A stretch of DNA of 64,000 nucleotides, taken from NCBI RefSeq assembly GCF_038725785.1, contig NZ_CP109796.1:5208001-5272000 (forward strand), given 5' to 3'. A program made the translations under genes and the position numbers. This document shows, in pieces, positions 20,206 to 32,300 of the stretch (position 1 is the first letter of the stretch; each line of letters opens with the position of its first letter). Below the pieces are notes generated by a model, which was not told the DNA's origin, searched no databases, and saw only the letters and a program-made list of their open reading frames with translations. The DNA comes from Termitidicoccus mucosus (lineage in GTDB: Bacteria; Verrucomicrobiota; Verrucomicrobiia; Opitutales; Opitutaceae).

Positions 20206-20286
20206 TTTAACCGCAAAGGACACAAAGGTCGCAAAGAACCAGCATAATCACCCTTGAGTTCTTTGTGTTCTCTGTGATTGATAAAA
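20206..20286. repeat. Palindromic intergenic repeat, family D-like copy
   Basis: Inverted arms of the form CCGCAAAGGACACAAAGGTCGC and its imperfect complement (TTCTTTGTGTTCTCTGTGATT) meet in a short loop. It ends 4 bp before the nikR ATG, so it overlaps the regulatory leader of that gene. The style resembles the D copies at 47985, 54351 and 54552, though the sequence is more distant. Confidence 0.55.
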
Positions 20287-20289
20287 GTC

Positions 20290-20721
20290 ATGCCAAAACA
20301 CGACAAAATCGCCCGCTTCAGTGTTTCGCTCCCGGAAAGTCTGCTCGACGAACTCGACGCCATGGTGGAGCGCAGGGGCTACCAAAGCCGCTCCCAGGCG
20401 GTGGCCGCGCTCGCGCGCGACGGGCTGGTCGAATACGCCTCCCAGCTCGGCACGGAATCGGTCGCGGGCACGATCAATCTGGTTTACGACTACAAGAAAA
20501 AAGGTCTCCAGGCCAAGCTGGCCGCGATCCAGCACAACTATTATCTGCTGATCGTTGCCAACATGCATGTCCATTTGGAGAATCACAATTATCTCGAGGT
20601 GCTGCTTGTCCAGGGGCGGGCCAGCGAATTGCAAAAGCTCGCCGATGAATTGATCACCTGCCGGGGCGTGAAAAACGGCCGCATCAGCCTCACCGCCACC
20701 ACCATTCCGCCGTTGTTGTAG
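20290..20721 (+). CDS. nikR: NikR-like ribbon-helix-helix metalloregulator with altered metal site
   Basis: A 143-residue protein. The N-terminal ribbon-helix-helix DNA-binding part (about 5-48, I-A-R-F-S-V-S-L-P-E then R-S-Q-A-V) is followed by an ACT-like metal-binding domain. Aligning to E. coli NikR by eye, His76, His87 and His89 are kept as His82, His93 and His95 (Q-H-N-Y-Y and H-V-H). The fourth ligand Cys95 is replaced by Tyr101 (H-N-Y-L-E-V). So it may bind nickel differently or sense another metal. The ATG at 20290 is chosen; a TTG 12 bases earlier lies inside the repeat. No nickel transporter or hydrogenase gene is near, so its target is unknown. It is convergent with nrdG. Confidence 0.85.
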   Translation: MPKHDKIARFSVSLPESLLDELDAMVERRGYQSRSQAVAALARDGLVEYASQLGTESVAGTINLVYDYKKKGLQAKLAAIQHNYYLLIVANMHVHLENHNYLEVLLVQGRASELQKLADELITCRGVKNGRISLTATTIPPLL

Positions 20722-20906: not shown

Positions 20907-21485
20907 TCAGGGTTGGCGGTAGGTTTGCCAGATGTGGGGCGAGCCTTGCGCGATGGCGGCGAGGGCGGGCGTGTCGGCTTCTGTCAGGCTGGGCCAGCGC
21001 GTGGTGCGGAGTTGGTGCGGCGTGCCTGACTCGCGGAGAAGGGCGATGGTTTCCTTGAGGGCGGCAATGTCCACGGCCACGCCGGCGGCCTCGTCGTAGC
21101 GGGGCCACGGGGCCTTGAGGTCCATCGCGACGTAGTCGATGAGGCGCGCGGCGAGGAGCGCGCGGACAACGGCGGGGCGGCTGCCGTTGGTGTCGAGTTT
21201 GATGCGATAACCGAGGGCGCGGATGCGGCGGATAAAATCGGGGAGATCGGCGTGAAGCGTGGGCTCGCCGCCGGTGATGACGGCGCCGTCGAGCCGGCCG
21301 CGGCGCGTGGCGAGGCGGGCGAGGATGTCGGCCTCGGGAAGCGGCGCGGTGAAATTTTTGGGATAAACGAGCGCGGGATTGTGGCACCAGGGGCAGCGCC
21401 AGTTGCAGCCTTGGGTGAAAATGACCGCGGCGATGTGTCCGGGAAAATCACCCAGGGAGCAGGGGACGTAGCCGCCGATGCGCAT
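20907..21485 (-). CDS. nrdG: Anaerobic ribonucleotide reductase activating protein, radical SAM
   Basis: A 192-residue protein with the radical-SAM cluster motif C-N-W-R-C-P-W-C-H-N-P at residues 27-37 (Cys27, Cys31, Cys34 binding the 4Fe-4S cluster). The SAM-binding G-G-E-P segment (T-G-G-E-P-T-L) lies near residue 71. It generates the glycyl radical on NrdD by reductive cleavage of S-adenosylmethionine under anoxic conditions. The N-terminal I-G-G-Y-V-P-C-S-L-G-D-F-P-G is typical of the NrdG/PflA type found with NrdD. It sits 127 bp downstream of nrdD on the same strand, with a palindromic repeat in the gap, and probably shares its transcript. Confidence 0.93.
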   Translation of the reverse strand: MRIGGYVPCSLGDFPGHIAAVIFTQGCNWRCPWCHNPALVYPKNFTAPLPEADILARLATRRGRLDGAVITGGEPTLHADLPDFIRRIRALGYRIKLDTNGSRPAVVRALLAARLIDYVAMDLKAPWPRYDEAAGVAVDIAALKETIALLRESGTPHQLRTTRWPSLTEADTPALAAIAQGSPHIWQTYRQP

Positions 21486-21612: not shown

Positions 21613-23937
21613 TTATTTTGCGGCGGCGATGGCAGACGGGACGTTCATGGTGTCGGGGGCCAGCGGGATGACATTTTGGCCGGGTGACAAGGTGGCGACG
21701 ACGGGGGTCTTATAGACGCGGCGGCGGGCAAACTCGGCCTGCTTGCCTTCGTTCCATTGCTGCACGGGGCGGAGGTAGCCGACGACGCGGGAATAGACCT
21801 CGGACGGACGGCCGCAGTCGGGGCAGGTGTGGTGCTCGCCGGCAATGTATCCATGTTCCGGGCACACGCTGAAGGTCGGCGTGAGCGAGAAGTAGGGCAT
21901 GCGGTAGGTTTCGGCGATGCGGCGGACGAGGAGCTTCGTCGCGACCGGGTCGGCGATGCGTTCGCCGAGGAAGAGGTGCAGCACGGTGCCGCCGGTGTAG
22001 CGGGTTTGCAGTTCGTCCTGATGATCGAGCGCCTCGAAGAGGTCGTCGGTCGCCTGCACGGGGAGGTGGCTGGAATTGGTGTAGAAGGGTTTCGCGCCCT
22101 GGAGCAGGTCTTCCTCGTTGGCGGCGAGGATGCCGGGGCAGGTTTCCTTGTCCTTTTTGGCGAGGCGGTAGCTGGTGCCTTCGGCGGGGGTGGCCTCGAG
22201 GTTGTAGTGGTTGCCGGTCTCGGTCTGGTAGGCGATGAGGCGCCCGCGCATGAAGTCGAGCGTGCGGAGGGCGAAGTCGCGGCCCTCGGGCGTGATGATG
22301 CCGCCCAGGCCGAGGTTGGCGCAGGCTTCGTTCATGCCGACGAGGCCGATGGTGGAGAAGTGGTTGCCCCAGTAGCGGCCGCCGCGTTTGCCGAGGTAGT
22401 ATTTGGTATATGGATACAGGCCGGCATCGGTGAGGCGTTCGAGGAGCTTGCGCTTGGTCTCGAGGGAGTCGCGGGCCATGTCCATGAGGCGGACGAGTTT
22501 TTCGCGGAAGGTTTTTTCGCGGGCGGCGAGGGGCGCGTCGGCGCCGGGTGCGGCGGGGTTTTCGCGCGTGGCGAGCCAGCCGAGGCGCGGGAGGTTGATG
22601 GTCACGACGCCGACGGAGCCGGTGAGCGGGTGCGCGCCGAAGAGGCCGCCGCCGCGGCGTTCGAGCTGGGTGTTGTCGATGCGGAGGCGGCAGCACATGG
22701 AGCGCGCGTCCTCGGGCTTCATGTCGGAGTTGATGAAGTTGGAGAAATAGGGGATGCCGTAGCGGCCGGTCATTTCCCACAGGCCGGCGAGGTTGGGGTT
22801 GTCCCAGTCGAAGTCGGGGGTGAGGTTGATGGTCGGTATCGGAAAGGTCATGACGCGGCCCTTGGCGTCGCCCTCGGCCATGACCTCGAAGAAGGCGCGG
22901 TTGAAGAGGTTCATCTCGGCTTGGAAATCGCCGTAGGTCTCGGGGCGCCAGGCGCCGCCGTGGACGACGGGCTGGCCGGCGAAATGGCGCGGGCAGACGA
23001 GGTCGAGGGTGATGTTGGTAAACGGGGTCTGGAAGCCGACGCGGGTGGGGACGTTGACGTTGTAGATGAATTCCTGGAGGGCCTGCTTGACCTGCGCGAA
23101 GTCCAGCCCGTCGAAGCGGATGAAGGGCGCGAGGAGGGTGTCGAAGCTGGAGAAGGCCTGCGCGCCGGCGGCCTCGCCCTGGAGGGTGTAGAAGAAGTTG
23201 ACGATCTGGCCGAGCGCGCTGCGGAGGTGGCGGGGCGGGCGGGACTCGATTTTTCCGGCGACGCCGCCGAAGCCGCGCTGGAGGAGGTCCGACAGGTCCC
23301 AGCCGACGCAGTAAACGGAGAGTTGGTTGAGGTCGTGGAGGTGAAAATCGCCGGTCTCGTGCGCGGCGCGGATTTCGGGCGGGTAGATGGCGTTGAGCCA
23401 GTAGGATTGGGAGACGGTGGCGGCGAGGTAGTTGTTGAGGCCCTGGAGCGAGTAGCTCATGTTGCTGTTTTCACGGACCTGCCAGTCGAGCTGCCGGAGG
23501 TAGCCGTCGATGAGCTCGACGTCCTGGCGGGCGGTGATCTCGCGGAGGCGTTTGTGCTGGTCGCGGTAAACGATGAAGGCGCGCGCGGTGCGGCGGAAGG
23601 GCGAGCCGAGGAGCATTTCCTCGATGACGTCCTGCACCTGCTCGACGCTGGGCGTGGTGTCGGCGATGGTGGCGGTGAGGTGATTGACGGCGCGGAGGGT
23701 GAGGCGCTGCGCCATGGCGCCGTCGTATTCGCCGGTGGCGGCCCCGGCGCGGGCGAGCGAGCGGGTGATGCGGGCGGCGTCGAAGGCGACGAGGCGGCCG
23801 TCGCGCTTGCGGACTTGCGCGGGCAGGCCGGGCGCGCCGCGGAGAAACGCGGCGAGGTCCTGCGCGGGTGTCGGGAGGTGGAGGGCGGGCGTGGCGGAGG
23901 AGGCGGAGGGTGTGTCGGAGAAAATGGAGTCGGACAT
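21613..23937 (-). CDS. nrdD: Anaerobic (class III) ribonucleoside-triphosphate reductase
   Basis: A 774-residue glycyl-radical enzyme that reduces ribonucleotides to deoxyribonucleotides without oxygen. An ATP-cone allosteric domain lies near 40-130 (V-R-K-R-D-G-R-L-V-A-F). The catalytic barrel follows. Near the C-terminus is a metal-binding knob C-P-E-H (Cys692) and C-P-D-C (Cys705, Cys708), then the glycyl-radical loop R-V-V-G-Y-L with Gly720 as the radical site. Length is normal for the family. No Shine-Dalgarno is seen before the ATG; the context is CACCCGCCATG, as for rpsJ. A cobalamin riboswitch with terminator lies about 350 bp upstream on the same strand with no gene in between, so B12 probably represses nrdDG. 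A B12-dependent class II RNR elsewhere in the genome would explain this. Confidence 0.95.
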   Translation of the reverse strand: MSDSIFSDTPSASSATPALHLPTPAQDLAAFLRGAPGLPAQVRKRDGRLVAFDAARITRSLARAGAATGEYDGAMAQRLTLRAVNHLTATIADTTPSVEQVQDVIEEMLLGSPFRRTARAFIVYRDQHKRLREITARQDVELIDGYLRQLDWQVRENSNMSYSLQGLNNYLAATVSQSYWLNAIYPPEIRAAHETGDFHLHDLNQLSVYCVGWDLSDLLQRGFGGVAGKIESRPPRHLRSALGQIVNFFYTLQGEAAGAQAFSSFDTLLAPFIRFDGLDFAQVKQALQEFIYNVNVPTRVGFQTPFTNITLDLVCPRHFAGQPVVHGGAWRPETYGDFQAEMNLFNRAFFEVMAEGDAKGRVMTFPIPTINLTPDFDWDNPNLAGLWEMTGRYGIPYFSNFINSDMKPEDARSMCCRLRIDNTQLERRGGGLFGAHPLTGSVGVVTINLPRLGWLATRENPAAPGADAPLAAREKTFREKLVRLMDMARDSLETKRKLLERLTDAGLYPYTKYYLGKRGGRYWGNHFSTIGLVGMNEACANLGLGGIITPEGRDFALRTLDFMRGRLIAYQTETGNHYNLEATPAEGTSYRLAKKDKETCPGILAANEEDLLQGAKPFYTNSSHLPVQATDDLFEALDHQDELQTRYTGGTVLHLFLGERIADPVATKLLVRRIAETYRMPYFSLTPTFSVCPEHGYIAGEHHTCPDCGRPSEVYSRVVGYLRPVQQWNEGKQAEFARRRVYKTPVVATLSPGQNVIPLAPDTMNVPSAIAAAK

Positions 23938-24020
23938 GGCGGGTGAATGGCGTGGTGATTATGGCGAGGGATACGGTGTGAAAACGGGCGGATTATCGGC
24001 AGTGGATGGATACACTATTG

Positions 24021-24129
24021 GATAATCGTTCCCTTTCTCTTTTTCGTAATCGTTCTTTTCGATTTTTGTCCCGGGCGCCCGCGTTATTCGGACGGGTTCG
24101 ATAACGAGTAAGAGAACGAAAACGATTGT
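24021..24129. repeat. AT/GC mixed inverted repeat in nrdD leader
   Basis: The left arm (24021-24061, T-A-A-T-C-G-T-T-C-C-C-T-T-T-C-T-C type) and right arm (24099-24128, A-G-A-G-A-A-C-G-A-A-A-A-C-G-A-T-T type) are imperfect complements around a G/C-rich centre. It lies in the untranslated leader between the riboswitch terminator and nrdD. A shorter hairpin, CACGGGCTGGAGGCCCGTG, follows at 24167-24185. Both look like inserted genomic repeats rather than parts of the switch. Confidence 0.5.
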
Positions 24130-24287
24130 GGCGGGGGAGGGCAGGGGGATTCCGCGCGACGCCGGTCACGGGCTGGAGGCCCGTGCCACAAGAAACAAAA
24201 AAACGCCGAGGGTGTATCGGCGCAATGAATGGACGCGGGCGCGCGGCAAGCGCGCCCGGGGAGGGAGGCTGGTTCATTCGTGCGATG

Positions 24288-24321
24288 AAGAAAAAAAAGA
24301 GCCGCGACGGAGGGTCGTGGC
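24288..24321 (-). terminator. Intrinsic terminator directly after cobalamin riboswitch
   Basis: On the minus strand an 8-bp stem with one mismatch (GCCACGAC, loop CCTCC, GTCGCGGC) is followed by a run of eight T. It lies about 15 bases past the B12-box part of the riboswitch, the classic layout for transcription-termination control of the downstream nrdDG operon. Confidence 0.75.
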
Positions 24322-24334
24322 ATTGATGAACTCG

Positions 24335-24560
24335 GCAGGGATGTTCGGACTCCGGGCTTCAGGAGACGCGCTTGGCGTGCCCCAGCCATTGGCCGGCCTT
24401 CACCCGCTCGCAGACGAGCGGATTGGCGTTGCCCGGAGCGCGTGTTCTCGAAACGCGTCCGGTGGACAATGTCACCCGTAACCGCAGCGCGACTGTGGCC
24501 GGTTTGCACGGCCTTTCCCGCTGCCGGGGATGATGTGAAAAAGAACGCGCCAAGGCTAGG
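24335..24560 (-). ncRNA. Cobalamin riboswitch upstream of nrdD
   Basis: Reading the minus strand, the conserved core appears in order. CATCCCCGGCAGCGGGAAAG is followed by G-C-C-G-T-G-C-A-A-A-C-C-G-G-C-C, then C-A-G-T-C-G-C-G-C-T-G-C-G-G-T-T-A (the A-C-U-G-U region). Later comes GCGGGTGAAGGC, and finally the B12-box-like GAAGCCCGGAGTCCGAAC. This matches the AdoCbl/cobalamin class by order and spacing. The element is followed by an intrinsic terminator. No gene lies between it and nrdD, so the regulated operon should be nrdD-nrdG. The outer boundaries are approximate. Confidence 0.82.
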
Positions 24561-24659: not shown

Positions 24660-25208
24660 AAATGCGCCGCATGATTCTATCCGCGCTCATAAATCCAGGG
24701 CCATCAGGACACCGGTATCAGGTTTCATGCACTGCCTGTGTTTGCTTAACATGTTGAAATATTGTATCTTATATGTTTATAAGGTGCAAAAAAAGAACCA
24801 TAACATCCATCTTGTTCCTCTGCTGTGCGTCACTTTTCATTCCTTCCGATTCTTTATTCCACCCAGATCACCTCCACCCACTTCATTACCCCGCCAGAGC
24901 GTCCAACAGATTCCGCCGGCATTGGATAATCATCATGAAGAAGCCCCTCGCGTTTCCACGTGCCTTCCTTTCTATTCCTTGGTTTTTATATATCGTCCGC
25001 GCCGGTCTCAAAACATCGAATCGGCGAATGATATAATCATCCCAAGCCGCCTCATCCCCTTTGATTCATTATTATGCCAGCATCATATCATCGAGATGCA
25101 TCAGTAATGTCCATGTTTCTTGCGATTTTGCCATGCTCCTGCGCGGATTGGTACAAGGCATATATTAAATAAAACCCGAATAATAATATAAAAATATTTC
25201 ATATTATC
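24660..25208. other. Intergenic region without recognised gene
   Basis: About 550 AT-richer bases between the riboswitch and the giant autotransporter. Frames here encode basic, Pro/Ser/His-rich peptides without family signal, and I see no RNA motif. It should contain the outward promoters of both units, but none stands out. Confidence 0.5.
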
Positions 25209-25634
25209 ATGAAATTGAATAACTTCCCAGTTAATTTTATCGGGCGCGCCCGTCGCCGGCGGTCCTTGATGGTCGCGCTCGCGCTCGTCCCGGCATTCTT
25301 GCAGCCGCCCGCGCGCGCCGCCGTTGTCCCAGTCCCGGAAATAACGACAAGCGACACCACCTATATCATCAGCCTCGGCGATACCGTCGGCCCGGCCACA
25401 TCCACCACCGGCACGATCATGGCCGACGGCGCAAGGCTGGTCATCAGCCGCGCTCCCGGACTCGGCACAACCAACCTGTTTGCCGGCGCGAATTTCGCCA
25501 GCCTTGCCGCGCTGAACATCACCGGCACCAACGGCGGGCGCGTCGTGTTTCAGGACATCCACTATGACCAGGACAACAGGCATGCGGGTGTGGCCGAGAT
25601 CAACACCACATACACCAATCTGACCCAGTTGAAC

Positions 25635-25849
25635 GTGACGGGGGTCGATTTCATGCGGATCAGCAACGGCGGCCCCGTTAATTATAACGGCGTGGGAGGC
25701 GTTTTCCTGTTTAATAAAGCCGGCCTGACCTCCACCTTCACCGTGACGGGGTCGATTTCATGCGGATCAGCAACGGCGGCCCCGTTAATTATAACGGCGT
25801 GGGAGGCGTTTTCCTGTTTAATAAAGCCGGCCTGACCTCCACCTTCACC
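25635..25849 (+). repeat. Tandem duplication (108 + 107 bp) causing a frameshift
   Basis: Copy 1 (25635-25742) and copy 2 (25743-25849) are identical except that copy 1 starts GTGACGGGGG and copy 2 GTGACGGGG. Removing one copy restores the autotransporter frame. This is typical of an unmerged contig overlap with a homopolymer error, or of a recent slippage event. Confidence 0.9.
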
Positions 25850-28800
25850 GATGTCCTTTTTCAGGATAATTATTCCTGGGGGGAGGGCGGCATCGCGCGC
25901 GTGGCCCTTGGCAATGTCATATTTAACGACGTGACCGTCCGGGGCAATTACACGCGGGGCAACAAGAATGCCGGCGCCTTCACCTTTAATTCCACCGGTG
26001 CCCTCACAATGAACGGCGGCTTGATCGAGGCCAACCGCACCGGTTTCGATGGCGGTGTCTTTGCCCTGGCCGCCGCCGCGAACACGACCCTCACGTTGAA
26101 CAACGTCGTCATCAGGGACAACTGGGCGGGCAGGTCGGCCGGCGTCTTCCTGAACAACATGAGTTCCAGCACCGCAAAGGTCGTCATCAACCTGACCGCT
26201 GCCGGCGGCACCAACAACTATCTCTATTCCGGCAACATTGCCGGCAACGCCTCGAATTATCATACCGCCACGCCCACCGTCGGCGAATACATGATAAACA
26301 ACAACGCCCCCGCGCCGCTCGCCAAGGCCGGCGGCTTCTACCGGGGCAACAATGCGGCGGGCACCTTGGAGATCAACGTCGAGTCGGGCATCACCCTCGC
26401 CATCGGCACCGCCGATGCGGCCGACATGGACACCCTCGCCACGAACAATGCCATGGCGCACAAACTCAACAAGCTCGGCGGCGGCGACCTCGTCCTCAAT
26501 GCCAACAACGCCTATTTCGTCGGCAACACCACCGTCGCGGCCGGGCGCCTCCTGCTCGGCAATGCCGGCGCGCAGCTCGGCGGCTCCATCACCGTCAGCG
26601 CCGGCGCCACCTTCGGCGGCTCGGGCACGGTCTCCTCCTTGCTGCAAAACGACACCGCCGCCGCGGCCTCCCTCACCGCCCAGGCCGGCGCCGCGCTCCA
26701 GATCGGCGCGCCCGGGGCGGTTGCGCCGCAGAAGTTGTATTTCGCCCGCACCGGCTCGAACACACTCACGCTCTCGGGTGGCGTCATTTTGAATTTCGAC
26801 CTCTTCGGCAGCGACGGCGCCCCCGACACTTACAACCAGCTCATCGCCGACCAGCTCGTCGCCGGCACCGGCACCAATATCATCGCCATCTCCAATCTCG
26901 GCACCGCCGACTCCTACACGCTCATCAGCAGTTCCTCCTTCATCGGCGAGGCGAGCAACTTCACCTACACCCTCGCCAACGCCTCGGTGACCGCCCGCAA
27001 CAGCCTCACATTTGAAAAATCCGGTCAGGATCTTCTTCTTAACAACTCACTCGCCAGCCTCGCCCTCACGTGGACGGGTTCCGAGGGCATGAGCTGGATC
27101 AATTCGGCCATCTCGGCGGCGAGCTGGACGGACGGAGGCGCACCCGCCGAGACCCATTTCAACACCGGCGATGCCGTCATCTTCGACGCCACCGCCGACA
27201 GCAGCCACCGTGGCGTCACTGTCGCGGCGGAAGGCGTCACGGTCTCCGGCATGAAGGTCGCGGGCGACGCCGATTACACCTTCGATGGCGGCGTGATCAC
27301 GGTTGACGCCGGCTCCGCGCGCCCTGCCTTCACCGGCACCACCGGCAAGCTCGAAAAATCCGGCACGGGTGCCATGACCCTCGCCAATGCTGGAAACAAC
27401 TTCGGACGCATCGAGATTGCCGGCGGGGCGATCGTCTTTTCCGATACCGCCCAACTGGGGGCGGGCGCGGACGAGATCCGGTTCACCGGCGACGGCATGC
27501 TCCGGACCGCGGCTGACGGCCTCGTGCTCGCCAACAGGCTCGAATCGGATGCAAACCGGACCGGTGCGATTGACACCAACGGAAACACGCTGGCCTACGC
27601 GGGCGTGCTGGCTGGCTCGGGGACGCTGGCCAAAATCGGCGCGGGCGTGCTCCGCCTGACTTCCGACAATGCCGCCTACGCCGCCTCCTTCGCCCTCCGC
27701 GAAGGCACGCTTCTGCTCGACGCCCCGTCCGCGAAACTTGGCGGTATCGTCACCTCCGCCAACGGCACGATCCTTGGCGGTTCCGGTGAGTTCACCGGCA
27801 CGGTCAATCTCGTTGCCGGCGCCATCCTTCAGATCGGAGTGGACTCCACACAATCGACCCTCGGCGTCGGAACCCTTAATTTCGACGGTGGCACGCTCGC
27901 CTTCGACCTTTTCGACGGCACGGCGGCCGACAAGCTCAATGCCGCCACCCTCGGCACCCTCGCGGGCGGCTACGGGGTCGATGTCAGCAGCTACCGCCAC
28001 GGCAGCCGCCCCCTCGCCACCATCAATGCGGGTGACCGCGCGACGTTTGCAAACAGCGCGGCCGTTACCGTCGGCGGACGCCCCCAGTCGGGTCTTCGCC
28101 AGCTCATGAAACTCGGTGTTTCCGGCAACGACCTCATCGTCACCGGCACCTCCGACTCATCCCGCGACATGAAGTGGACGGGAGCCGGTTCGACCATCAC
28201 GGCATGGGATGATGCCAATGCCAACTGGACGGATGCCGGCGCCGTCCACACCTTCGCCGAAGGCGACCGGGTGACTTTCGACGCCGGCTCCCCCGGCGCC
28301 TCGCACGCCATCGCCATCGCCGGGACGCGCATCACGGTTTCGGACATGGTTGTCCAGGGAAACGCCGATTATCGTTTCACCGGCGCGGCTGTCGTCGCCG
28401 ATCCGGGCAGCGTGGTCGGCGCCATCCTTACCGGAGCCCAAGGCAAACTCACCAAGGACGGCAGCGGCAAACTCACCCTCGCCAATGACGGCGTGAATGC
28501 CTTCAAGGGCGGCATCGACCTGAAGGCCGGCACGCTCGCCCTCGAGGCATCCGGGGCGTCCGGCACCCATGCCATCAACCTCGCCGGCGCGGCGGCGACC
28601 CTGCAAATGGCGGGCGCCGATCTCACGCTTGTCAACGCCATCAACCTCGGCGCCAACACCCTCATCTTTGACACCCAGGCCTTCAACGCGACCCTCCAGG
28701 GCTCCATCGCCGGTTCGGGCAGTCTGATCAAGACGGGCGCGGGCACGCTCACCCTCGACGGCGCTTCCACTCACACCGGGGTGAACACCCTCTCGGCCGG

Positions 28801-29431
28801 TGTGCTCGCGCTCGGGCATGGCTCCGCGCTCGGCGCCGACTCCGCGAAACTCGCCGTCGGGGCCGATGGTGCGGCGGTGCGCCTCGCCGCCGCCGGACTC
28901 TCCATTGCCAACGCCATCGACCTCGGCGCCCACACCCTCACCCTCGACGCCCTCGGCAACACCGGAACTTTTTCCGGGATCATCAGCGGCGCAGGCGGCC
29001 TGACCAAAATCGGCGCGGGCACGGTCGCGCTTTCCGGCAGCAACACTTTTTCCGGTCCGCTTGCCATCAACGAGGGCGTCGTCTCGCTCCGCTCGGCCAA
29101 CGCGCTCGGCGCGGCGCAGCTCAAGGGGACCGGCGTCCTGGCGGTGACGACGGGGAATTTCGCATTCGCTTCCACGGCCCTCGGCGGCGGTTTCACCGGC
29201 ACCGTGGCGGCGGCCGATTCCGGGCATCTGGCCCTTGACGCCAATGCCGCCGCCCTCCTCTCCGTGGACGGCGCGGTGCTCCGCATCGATTCCGGCGGTG
29301 TCGTGCAGAAAGCCTCCGGCAACGTCGCCATCGACAGCCTCGCCCTCAACGGCGGCCTGATGGGTTTCGGCATGAACGGCCAGAACCCCGATGGTATCCT
29401 TACCGTGGATACACTCGACCTCGGCTCGGGC

Positions 29432-30009
29432 GTGAGCAGCATCGGTCTCGACACCAGCGCCCTCCTCGCCGACATCGTCAATCCCCCCGTCCCGCCCGAT
29501 CCCAACATCCTGGACCTGGACAACGGCGTCGGCGGCACCAGGCTTGTCGCCGCCACCACCATCACCGGCGCGGGCACCATCGTGCTGACCAGCACCGACG
29601 GCAGCGCCATCCCCACGCCAGCGTATGTGAACATCACGCAGAGCGGGGACACCGTGCGCCGGCGGCACAATTACACCACGTCCGTGGTCACCGACGGCCC
29701 GGCGAGGGCGTCAATCGGGCGTGAGCAGCATCGGTCTCGACACCAGCGCCCTCCTCGCCGACATCGTCAATCCCCCCGTCCCGCCCGATCCCAACATCCT
29801 GGACCTGGACAACGGCGTCGGCGGCACCAGGCTTGTCGCCGCCACCACCATCACCGGCGCGGGCACCATCGTGCTGACCAGCACCGACGGCAGCGCCATC
29901 CCCACGCCAGCGTATGTGAACATCACGCAGAGCGGGGACACCGTGGCCCGCGCCGGCTACAATTACACCACGTCCGTGGTCACCGACGGCTCCGGCGAGG
30001 GCAATGGTG
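29432..30009 (+). repeat. Tandem duplication (289-bp offset) causing a frameshift
   Basis: The segment starting GTGAGCAGCATCGGTCTC at 29432 is repeated from 29721. The copies are identical for over 200 bp, then the last about 60 bases of copy 1 carry several small differences (for example around 29655-29665 and 29695-29715) relative to copy 2. The offset of 289 is not a multiple of three, so the reading frame breaks. Confidence 0.9.
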
Positions 30010-32300
30010 TTTACATGGGCTACGGCCTGGCCGAGATCGGCATCCTCGATGGCAAGACACTCATCCTCGACAACGGAAGCAGCACCGACTCCAACCTGTC
30101 GGCCAAGATCACCGGCCCGGGCGGGCTCGATATCCGGGCGACCGGCAGCGCCGCCGTCACGCTGACCAATGCCGGCAACGATTACACCGGCGCCACCACC
30201 CTTTCCAGCGGCACCCTCAGGGCCGGCGCGGCCAACGTGATCGCCACCAGCAGCGGCGTGGAGGTGAAGGCCGGCGCGGTCTTCGACATGGACGGTTTCG
30301 CGCAGACCGTGAAAAATCTCGCCGGTGCGGGCAGTATCATGATGGGAACCGGCAGCCTCACGGTCGATACCGCCGCCGGCGGCCTCTTTTCAGGCGGCAT
30401 CACCGGAAGTGGAAAATTGATCAAGACCGGCGCGGGCCGTCTTTCGCTCACCGGTTCCAGCGCCTACACCGGCGGCACCGAATTGGCGGCGGGAGAGCTT
30501 GGCATCGGTCACAGCCACGCTTTGGGCACGGGCGCGCTCACCGTCACCGCGGCAGACGTGAAGCTCGCGATTGAAGGCAACAACCTCACCGTGGTCAACG
30601 CGATCGCCATCGGTGGAAACGGCCTTGCCATTGATTCCGGCACGAGCAGCAACAGCGTCCTCGCCGGCGTCATCAGCGGCGCGGGCGCGGTTGTGGCGGG
30701 CGGTAACGGCGAGGTCGGCCTCGCTGGCGCGAACACCTTCAGCGGGGGACTCGCGATCAACAGCGGGCGTGTCTTTGCCACCGGCTCCAACGGCGCGAGG
30801 GCGATCGGCACGGCGGCGGTCACGATTGCCCCGTCGGCCGTGCTTGAGTTCCGCGGCGTCACGGCCGGCGCCGTGAACAACACGCTCGGCGGCGATACGG
30901 TTGAGTTTACCAACAGCACGCTCGCGCTCGGCGGCGCGAATACCCTCCAGCGTTTCATCGTCGGCAGCGGCGCCAGGATCACCGCTTCCTCCACCGGCGC
31001 GCTCGGCGGCGTTTCCGCCGCCGTCACCATCGGCTCCGGCGGCGAGCTCGGCATCAGCCCGTTGGGCACCGTCGCCGGCACCCTCGAGGTCAAAAATGGC
31101 GGCAAGCTCATCTTTAATCCCATGTGGCGCGTCAACACCTCCCCCATGCTGACCGTTGACTCCGCCATCATCGAGAACGGCGCCTCCATTTCAAAATCGA
31201 TCCCGATGCCGGCACGGTGAGCTTCGGCGCGCTGAATTATGTCGCCAATCCCGGCAAGGACATCGCCGCCATGTTCGACGCCATGACCGCCGCCGGCAAC
31301 GCCATCTACTCCCGCGTCAGCGAGGGCTTTCTCTTCGCCACGGATCGTCCCGCAGGCAGTTTCTGGCTCAAGGGCATCGGCTCCTACGCCAGCTATGACG
31401 GCAACACCGGCCCCTCCGACTACGTCCACGGCACCATCGACAGCAACGCCGGCAAGACCGGATATGCCAACGACACCTATGGTATTGTCGCGGGATTCGA
31501 CCGGAAAGTCTCCGAACAATTCCTCGCCGGGGCCTATGTCGGCTGCCTGAGCAACAGAATCCGCACCGATGACCGCCTCTCTGAAAACGAAGGCACCCTT
31601 CCTTTCGGCGGCGCCTACGGCGCCCTTCGTTTTGGGACCGTTTATCTCGCCGCCGATCTTATGTTCGGCTCCATGGACGCCGACACCTCCCGCTTCGAGC
31701 AAACCGGCTACGCCACCGGCGCCTACAAGACGTCCATCTACGGCGCCAGCATCGAGGCGGGCACCATCCTCGGCGCCTGGGACAAGGGCGCCATCAAACC
31801 CGCCGTCGCCCTCCATTACACCAGCTTGCGCTACCGCAATCAGGACGAGACCGGTCCCGGCTCGGTCCTTATTGACGGCTTCGACATCGAATACTTGGAA
31901 TCCCTCGTCAGCCTGCAAGTCACGCAGGAGATCACCCTGCCGTGGAAGAAGCCCGGCGTGATCGACGGGCGCATCGGCTGGCGCGGGTCCCTCAAGGACT
32001 CGCCCATCAAAACCACCGGCCGATTCCTCGGCGGAGCGCCGGACGAAAACTTTGCCATCGCGGTGGACCAATACAACCGCAACGGCCTCCTCATCGGACT
32101 CGGATTGCGCTTCGGCCTCACCGAAAAATCCGACTTCTCCCTCGGCTACGACTTCGAGCTCGGGAGCGAGTTCAACCGGCACACACTCGAAGCCGCCGTG
32201 CGCTTTATTTGGTGACCCCGTCCTCTCGCGCGGGGCCGGGCGTTGATTCCTGTCTCCGTGCGTTTCGCCCTTTGACCAATAACAAAAACAAGACACTGCC

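Follow-up and report, generated by a model that had tools for sequence, protein, structure and literature searches.

Introduction

In Streptomyces, vitamin B12 reportedly represses the B12-independent ribonucleotide reductase (RNR) operon nrdABS through a riboswitch, a case that concerns class I only and is said to have been shown experimentally by Borovok in 2006. For class III operons, a proposal made in 2004 holds that, in organisms with NrdJ, B12-elements in front of nrdDG turn off the B12-independent enzyme (PMC545781), and a cobalamin riboswitch has been recorded before nrdD in a Chlorobium (PMC8620254). In Propionibacterium acnes, cobalamin riboswitches are annotated before nrdAB and nrdDG and not before nrdRJ (class II), and much of the nrdAB transcription seems to stop before the first gene (PMC3848588); in Pseudomonas aeruginosa, addition of B12 slightly reduces nrd expression without the involvement of a B12 riboswitch (PMC5962746). 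This report describes a cobalamin element that lies on the minus strand in front of the class III operon nrdDG in a 64,000-nucleotide stretch of the Termitidicoccus mucosus genome (contig NZ_CP109796.1, positions 5,208,001 to 5,272,000), referred to below as the window, whose own numbering is used except for genome positions prefixed C1.

The locus resembles those of Desulfovibrio vulgaris and Desulfuromonas, in which an element likewise precedes the class III operon, a B12-dependent reductase is co-encoded and the same logic was put forward; those organisms are Deltaproteobacteria with NrdJ, whereas here the partner is a divergent RTPR-like protein and nrdAB carries an element too (PMC545781). 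It also shares the distribution of elements seen in P. acnes, which belongs to another phylum and was studied by RNA-seq, whereas the present case is known from sequence alone (PMC3848588). The kind of arrangement is already known, and the suggestion in the original prediction that B12 chooses between RNR classes had been made before in three papers (PMC545781, PMC3848588, PMC8620254); the novelty lies in the lineage, in a partner enzyme of RTPR-like type, in an aptamer that looks copied and in the terminator model.

A cobalamin aptamer precedes nrdDG

The operon and the aptamer occupy the following positions:

21613..23937, minus strand: nrdD, class III anaerobic ribonucleoside-triphosphate reductase of 774 amino acids (TIGR02487, 521 bits, cut-off 326; PF13597, 625 bits)
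20907..21485, minus strand: nrdG, radical SAM activase of 192 amino acids (TIGR02495 NrdG2, 181 bits, cut-off 131; PF04055, 83 bits)
24334..24527, minus strand: cobalamin aptamer (full-length match to the lineage model R1, 93.3 bits; RF00174, 20.3 bits; 208 of 215 nucleotides identical to a copy before a permease gene of the same genome)

Both the reductase and the activase are recognised by the curated models for class III RNRs, and the aptamer on the minus strand before them, which the original prediction had placed there, is recovered by R1, a covariance model of 175 positions and 36 pairs that derives from RF00174 matches. For its training, 30 aptamers from this family were used, namely 28 of the 30 family loci that were kept and the two that RF00174 finds in the genome of the window; L116, which lacks the AGYCCGAA signature, and L143, whose core start the pattern missed, were excluded. 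The training set held zero copies directly before nrdD and one (L135) before btuB with nrdD behind it. R1 matches 24527-24334 over its full length with an E-value of 8.9e-34 in 251 kb and 2.9e-32 in the whole genome, where six places score at least 77 bits and the next best in 7.9 Mb reaches 15.3. Among 200 genomes sampled from the family, 63 contain an RF00174 match and 39 of these have one above its cut-off, and sisters of the lineage, among them the btuF copy of the same genome (32.7 bits), pass the gathering score. Judged by this whole-aptamer homology to accepted RF00174 members, the window element is a genuine member of the cobalamin riboswitch class.

Covariation points in the same direction. 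In an alignment that was fitted to R1 and is biased towards the model (43 matches taken from 41 selected sources, giving 42 different rows), 95.9% of the paired cells hold a pair as against 83.7% after shuffling, with none of 500 shuffles as high, and 181 cells are changed on both sides as against 45.9 in shuffles; slid controls bring pairing down to 27–44%. The elements of the window's family, that is, have conserved helices with compensatory changes.

In other corrinoid riboswitches, ligand binding leads to pairing of L5 with L13 and stabilises P13 (PMC10653944). Two features of the window correspond to this arrangement:

24488..24492, minus strand: five-nucleotide feature (by position count and by the L5/L13 association in 54 family elements)
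24273..24289, minus strand: P13 hairpin TTCAT-CGCACGA-ATGAA with the L13 loop at 24284-24278, a form common to family elements

Three types of L5 occur in the family (UUGCG, UCGCG or UAGCG), and an L13 of the form CGCNNGA is found in all 10 elements with UCGCG and in 1 of the 44 with another L5; the Fisher value of 5e-10 cannot be read as a true probability, given the relatedness of the sequences, and the L13 pattern itself required CGC. The count covers 56 distinct elements, 54 of which gave an L13 (L119 and L143 had none by the pattern), and leaves out two duplicates, as well as L229 and L221, which lack the core, the copies L116, L208, L227, L234 and L235, and the nrdD copy of the congener G077. 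The UCGCG type comprises the nrdD, nrdA, permease, btuF1 and metE elements with a readable L5; UAGCG goes with an L13 of CGCAUCA (5 of 5), a poorer fit to simple pairing. Complementarity of GCG with CGC, together with this association, suggests an L5-L13 kissing loop with P13 downstream, and core, L5 and L13 are intact both in the window and in the nrdD element of G060, a member of another genus.

Six elements in one genome

Besides the window element, R1 places five others in the genome:

C1:3365978: element before ExbB-like and TonB-receptor (btuB-like) genes
C1:3357151: element before btuF, followed by btuC- and btuD-like open reading frames (ORFs)
C1:1453083: element before a TonB receptor gene and btuF, followed by btuC- and btuD-like ORFs
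C1:7604902, minus strand: element before an Asp-Al_Ex permease gene
C1:7605339: element before nrdAB (class I)

ExbB, the receptors, BtuF and the permease were assigned by Pfam, BtuC and BtuD by reading. The RF00174 search of the genome found only two of the six elements that R1 found. At nrdA, 58 nucleotides lie between the aptamer and the first ATG, the sequence AAAGGA stands just before this ATG and P13 is located at the Shine-Dalgarno sequence. A cobQ gene (380 bits, over the cut-off) lies about 6 kb from the element at C1:1453083, so that T. mucosus may itself produce or complete corrinoids.

The aptamers before nrdD and before the permease gene are 97% identical, and the likeness ends at the closing stem. 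It is conceivable, though doubtful, that the riboswitch before nrdD arose as a copy of a module from another place (a permease-type aptamer) and later gained its own platform, in which closing strand and P13/L13 strand would jointly hold one terminator open; the Asp-Al_Ex permease would then have a so far unnoticed role in corrinoid metabolism, and B12 control of RNRs would have spread by aptamer copying, not by gene movement. The permease locus (PF06826; C1:7602973-7605095, minus strand), with its cobalamin element in front, recurs in G077 and in another genus, G080 (L234, L233). A literature search on AspT together with a cobalamin riboswitch found no paper.

The ribonucleotide reductase set

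NrdA is accepted by TIGR02506 and by an equivalog model for class I, and NrdB adjoins it. The presence of a class I enzyme gives no support to the description of the organism as an anaerobe in the original prediction. A class II enzyme, expected there as nrdJ, was at one stage taken to be absent, as the PF02867 search of the genome listed NrdA only; this conclusion was withdrawn after a TIGR02505 match to a protein of 888 amino acids, encoded outside the window at C1 about 3284.8–3287.5 kb (L182), which PF02867 itself matches at 28.8 bits (cut-off 23.9) when the protein is searched directly. TIGR02505 matches occur in 14 of the 14 genomes searched and exceed the cut-off in none, and because its cut-off is missed the protein is named RTPR-like, not RTPR.

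This protein contains an ATP cone and a sub-threshold B12-RNR insertion domain. Its best solved relative is the B12-dependent RNR 1l1l (E-value 4e-28 with the single sequence, 1.9e-43 with a profile), which also heads the Foldseek matches of a fold model whose low confidence (mean predicted local distance difference test score 59.3) restricts it to a supporting role. All of the 12 class II-like loci that were read contain NPCxE, the cysteine of CNL, NC[SA]F and a C-terminal CxxxxC; the ORFs had been chosen for holding NPC, so that the first motif is partly preset, and L183 and L188 are not among the 12. NPCxE, the second cysteine and the C-terminal CxxxxC are active-site motifs of class II RNRs. 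Among the class II loci submitted to R1, none has a match above 12 bits. RNRs of classes I and III are encoded in the genome, and homology adds one of class II; cobalamin elements precede the former two only. The predicted choice between class II and class III gains from the finding of a class II-like gene, and has to be widened to class I because nrdAB has a cobalamin element of its own.

The leader and a predicted terminator switch

Between the aptamer and nrdD, and just upstream of the aptamer, the following features were located:

24291..24321, minus strand: hairpin T1 (24321-24301, seven pairs, one A-C mismatch) with eight Ts at 24298-24291 (fold states)
24197..24223, minus strand: hairpin T2 (stem 24223-24203, seven pairs) with seven Ts at 24203-24197, the first within the stem (terminator scan, fold states)
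24331..24337, minus strand: UGCCGAG, including the aptamer's 3' closing strand UGCCG; its alternative pairing with 24210-24204 would form the antiterminator AT1 (fold model)
24221..24231, minus strand: CATTCATTGCG, predicted to pair with the L13/P13 3' arm (24284-24275) as the antiterminator AT2, nine pairs; overlaps the first three bases of T2 (fold model)
24035..24197, minus strand: repeats of dispersed type in the T2-to-nrdD part of the leader (genome similarity search)
24761..24790, minus strand: weak sigma-70-like promoter candidate TTTGCA-18-TACAAT (one found in the scan, 0.6 expected)

The hairpin with eight Ts and the leader of about 350 nucleotides that separates it from the nrdD start at 23937 are present as originally described. 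T1 is formed at a probability of at least 0.99 in each modelled fold state and, being constitutive in the model, is improbable as the switched terminator it had been taken for; folding favours T2, a hairpin that the original prediction had not named and the sequence of which is identical in the congener G077. The leader contains one ORF of 94 amino acids (23993-24277, minus strand), starting at the ATG inside P13, which is taken as a chance frame. At the position of this start codon some members have TTG or GTG, also possible starts, and both metE copies have ATA or ATC, on which account a leader peptide from P13 appears unlikely. A search of the genome with 24305-23950 returned 19 matches, its own included, at E-values of at most 0.001, the 18 others falling at query positions 109–166 and 165–271. 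In G077 the nrdD leader contains longer AACGATTA-type repeats.

In the segment folded from 24337 on, the modelled probability of T2 is 0.18 when neither strand is held; locking the first seven bases raises it to 0.95, and docking L13 in addition to 0.97, and among 300 shuffled leaders a shift of at least 0.7 on locking the seven bases occurred in 2 (0.7%). The closing strand, in this model, would do most of the control of T2, and docking little. A pairing of GUUCAU (from 24331) with AUGAAC was rejected as the switch, its probability being 0.13 at most and the pairing being absent in G077. The corrinoid riboswitch before metE in P. megaterium likewise has an L5-L13 kissing loop and a P13 whose 3' side can base-pair with a terminator's 5' side; these contacts were tested by mutation, whereas here the fold model gives the larger part to the closing strand (PMC10653944). 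The same text mentions platforms of the closing-strand type for other riboswitches (PMC10653944).

The best explanation, to which a probability of about 0.7 is given, is that the element, a corrinoid riboswitch, is an OFF switch on nrdDG; that T2 is the site at which it would end transcription has somewhat under an even chance. Binding of a corrinoid would close the aptamer and dock L5 onto L13; closure would withdraw UGCCG from the 3' arm of T2, and docking would withdraw the P13/L13 strand from its foot, whereupon T2 could form and transcription would end before nrdDG. When corrinoid is lacking, the free strands would keep T2 open and nrdDG would be expressed. At the nrdA sister element, P13 beside the Shine-Dalgarno sequence would close class I at translation, and as the class II-like gene has no element, corrinoid supply would shift the cell away from class I and class III towards class II. 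Of this scheme, the aptamer's homology and position and the set of RNR genes (class II by homology) are shown, whereas the ligand, the sign of the response, the part of T2, the translational block and the physiology are inferred. If this is true, both B12-independent routes to deoxyribonucleotides in T. mucosus are under the control of vitamin B12, which, possibly supplied by neighbours, decides which enzyme feeds DNA synthesis, and the logic proposed for Deltaproteobacteria and P. acnes extends to Opitutaceae. The model of kissing loop and terminator is directly testable.

Elements in related genomes

Nine of the 200 sampled genomes, that of the window included, have an NrdD of at least 70% identity. 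In three of them an element stands directly before nrdD: the window's genome, G077 (39.3 bits, the contig ending inside the aptamer) and G060 (102.6 bits with R1). In G009 the element precedes a btuB-like gene and nrdD lies behind that gene; just upstream of this cluster, on the opposite strand, there is a fragment resembling the C-terminus of NrdG (L208:1312-1425). In G005 and G053 (L220, L219) the sole R1 match lies before metE (PF01717), with the 3' arm of P13 at the Shine-Dalgarno sequence. The gene of another B12-independent enzyme is here under a cobalamin element, which is counted in favour of the OFF switch; the search with PF01717 gave no match in the window's genome, G077, G060 or G009. 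Loci L006 to L009 were equated with L088, L091, L092 and L093 from equal match figures.

Weighing the explanations

A number of observations weigh against the proposed OFF switch, and they are taken here together with the explanations that draw on them. The terminator scan returned T2 as its sole match, one found where 1.4 are expected by chance, and did not report T1. With only L13 docked, T2 stays at 0.19, which indicates that the kissing loop contributes little to it in the model; set beside the 0.95 reached with the closing strand alone, this gives no support to the idea that both locks are needed. A free-state T2 of at most 0.25 is found in 9.7% of the shuffles, and in G077 T2 moves only from 0.74 free to 0.98 locked. 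The whole leader, folded unconstrained, has T2 at 0.97 and AT1 at 0, so that the model requires an unliganded aptamer to leave its closing strand free. In G060 the gap of about 300 nucleotides from P13 to nrdD holds no run of five Ts, and a T2-type terminator is therefore not general. The scan result, the small effect of docking alone and the gap of G060 would suit a functional aptamer that acts otherwise than by termination at T2, for example by Rho-dependent termination in a C-rich leader, the gap of G060 being C-rich, or by long-range control of translation, P13 lying at the Shine-Dalgarno sequence in nrdA and the metE relatives. Such a route is possible though rather unlikely: the window leader does contain T2 and two possible partner strands for it, T2 is unchanged in G077, and the shift modelled on locking the closing strand is rare among shuffles.

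The relatives bear on another question, namely whether the element acts on nrdD at all. In five of the nine genomes (G102, G005, G053, G011 and G034) no R1 element was found in about 1.5 to 5 kb upstream of nrdD; all five hold a TIGR02505 match, so that having class II is no predictor of an nrdD element, and at the locus of a second PF02867 protein of G005 (a 780-amino-acid frame) no element was found either. The RTPR-like protein of T. mucosus, at 207.2 bits against a cut-off of 340.05, falls outside TIGR02505 membership, a further point against the proposed OFF switch. A promoter 3' of T2, within the repeat-filled stretch, might drive nrdDG and leave the element a leftover or a source of short RNA. 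The repeats, the genes without an element, the btuB-like gene that intervenes in G009 and the 97% copy, which may be a recent arrival, would fit such uncoupling, which is nevertheless quite improbable: G077 and G060 retain the element before nrdD, with core and both loops intact in the latter as in the window, nrdAB of the same genome has one as well, and the scan gave no sigma-70-like candidate 3' of T2, other promoter types being possible. Cobalamin elements before uptake genes fit repression, and the sister elements of this genome precede such genes, which makes it very unlikely that corrinoid raises the expression of nrdDG. An activating corrinoid riboswitch is known from cobT of A. halodurans; there, P13 and the terminator are mutually exclusive, whereas P13 and T2 are predicted to form together when locked (PMC10653944). 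A match to the Rfam models, anticipated in the original prediction, was obtained only below the gathering score: at that score RF00174 has no match in the 64-kb window, with a relaxed threshold on 1 kb it finds 24515-24342 at 20.3 bits (E-value 0.0082; gathering score 31.5), and a relaxed 67-kb scan with E-values up to 1 lists the G060 copy at 30.1 bits and not the window copy (L086). Chance likeness to a cobalamin aptamer in GC-rich DNA would accommodate these scores but is practically negligible in view of the covariation and of 93.3 bits with R1 against 15.3 for the best match outside the six places; the element is filed as a cobalamin riboswitch because the gathering score is taken as a limit of sensitivity and not as a defining trait, and because of its homology to the sisters. 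Limits of the tools are exposed both here, with two of six elements listed by RF00174, and in the PF02867 search of the genome, which missed the class II-like gene.

Other features of the window

An ORF on the plus strand (20278-20721), convergent with nrdG, resembles by reading a NikR-type nickel regulator. On the other side of the element, a gene read as autotransporter-like (about 25209-32215, plus strand) contains a tandem duplication of 289 bp with 97% matches (29426-30002); its length is not a multiple of three, and the reading frame changes at the duplication.

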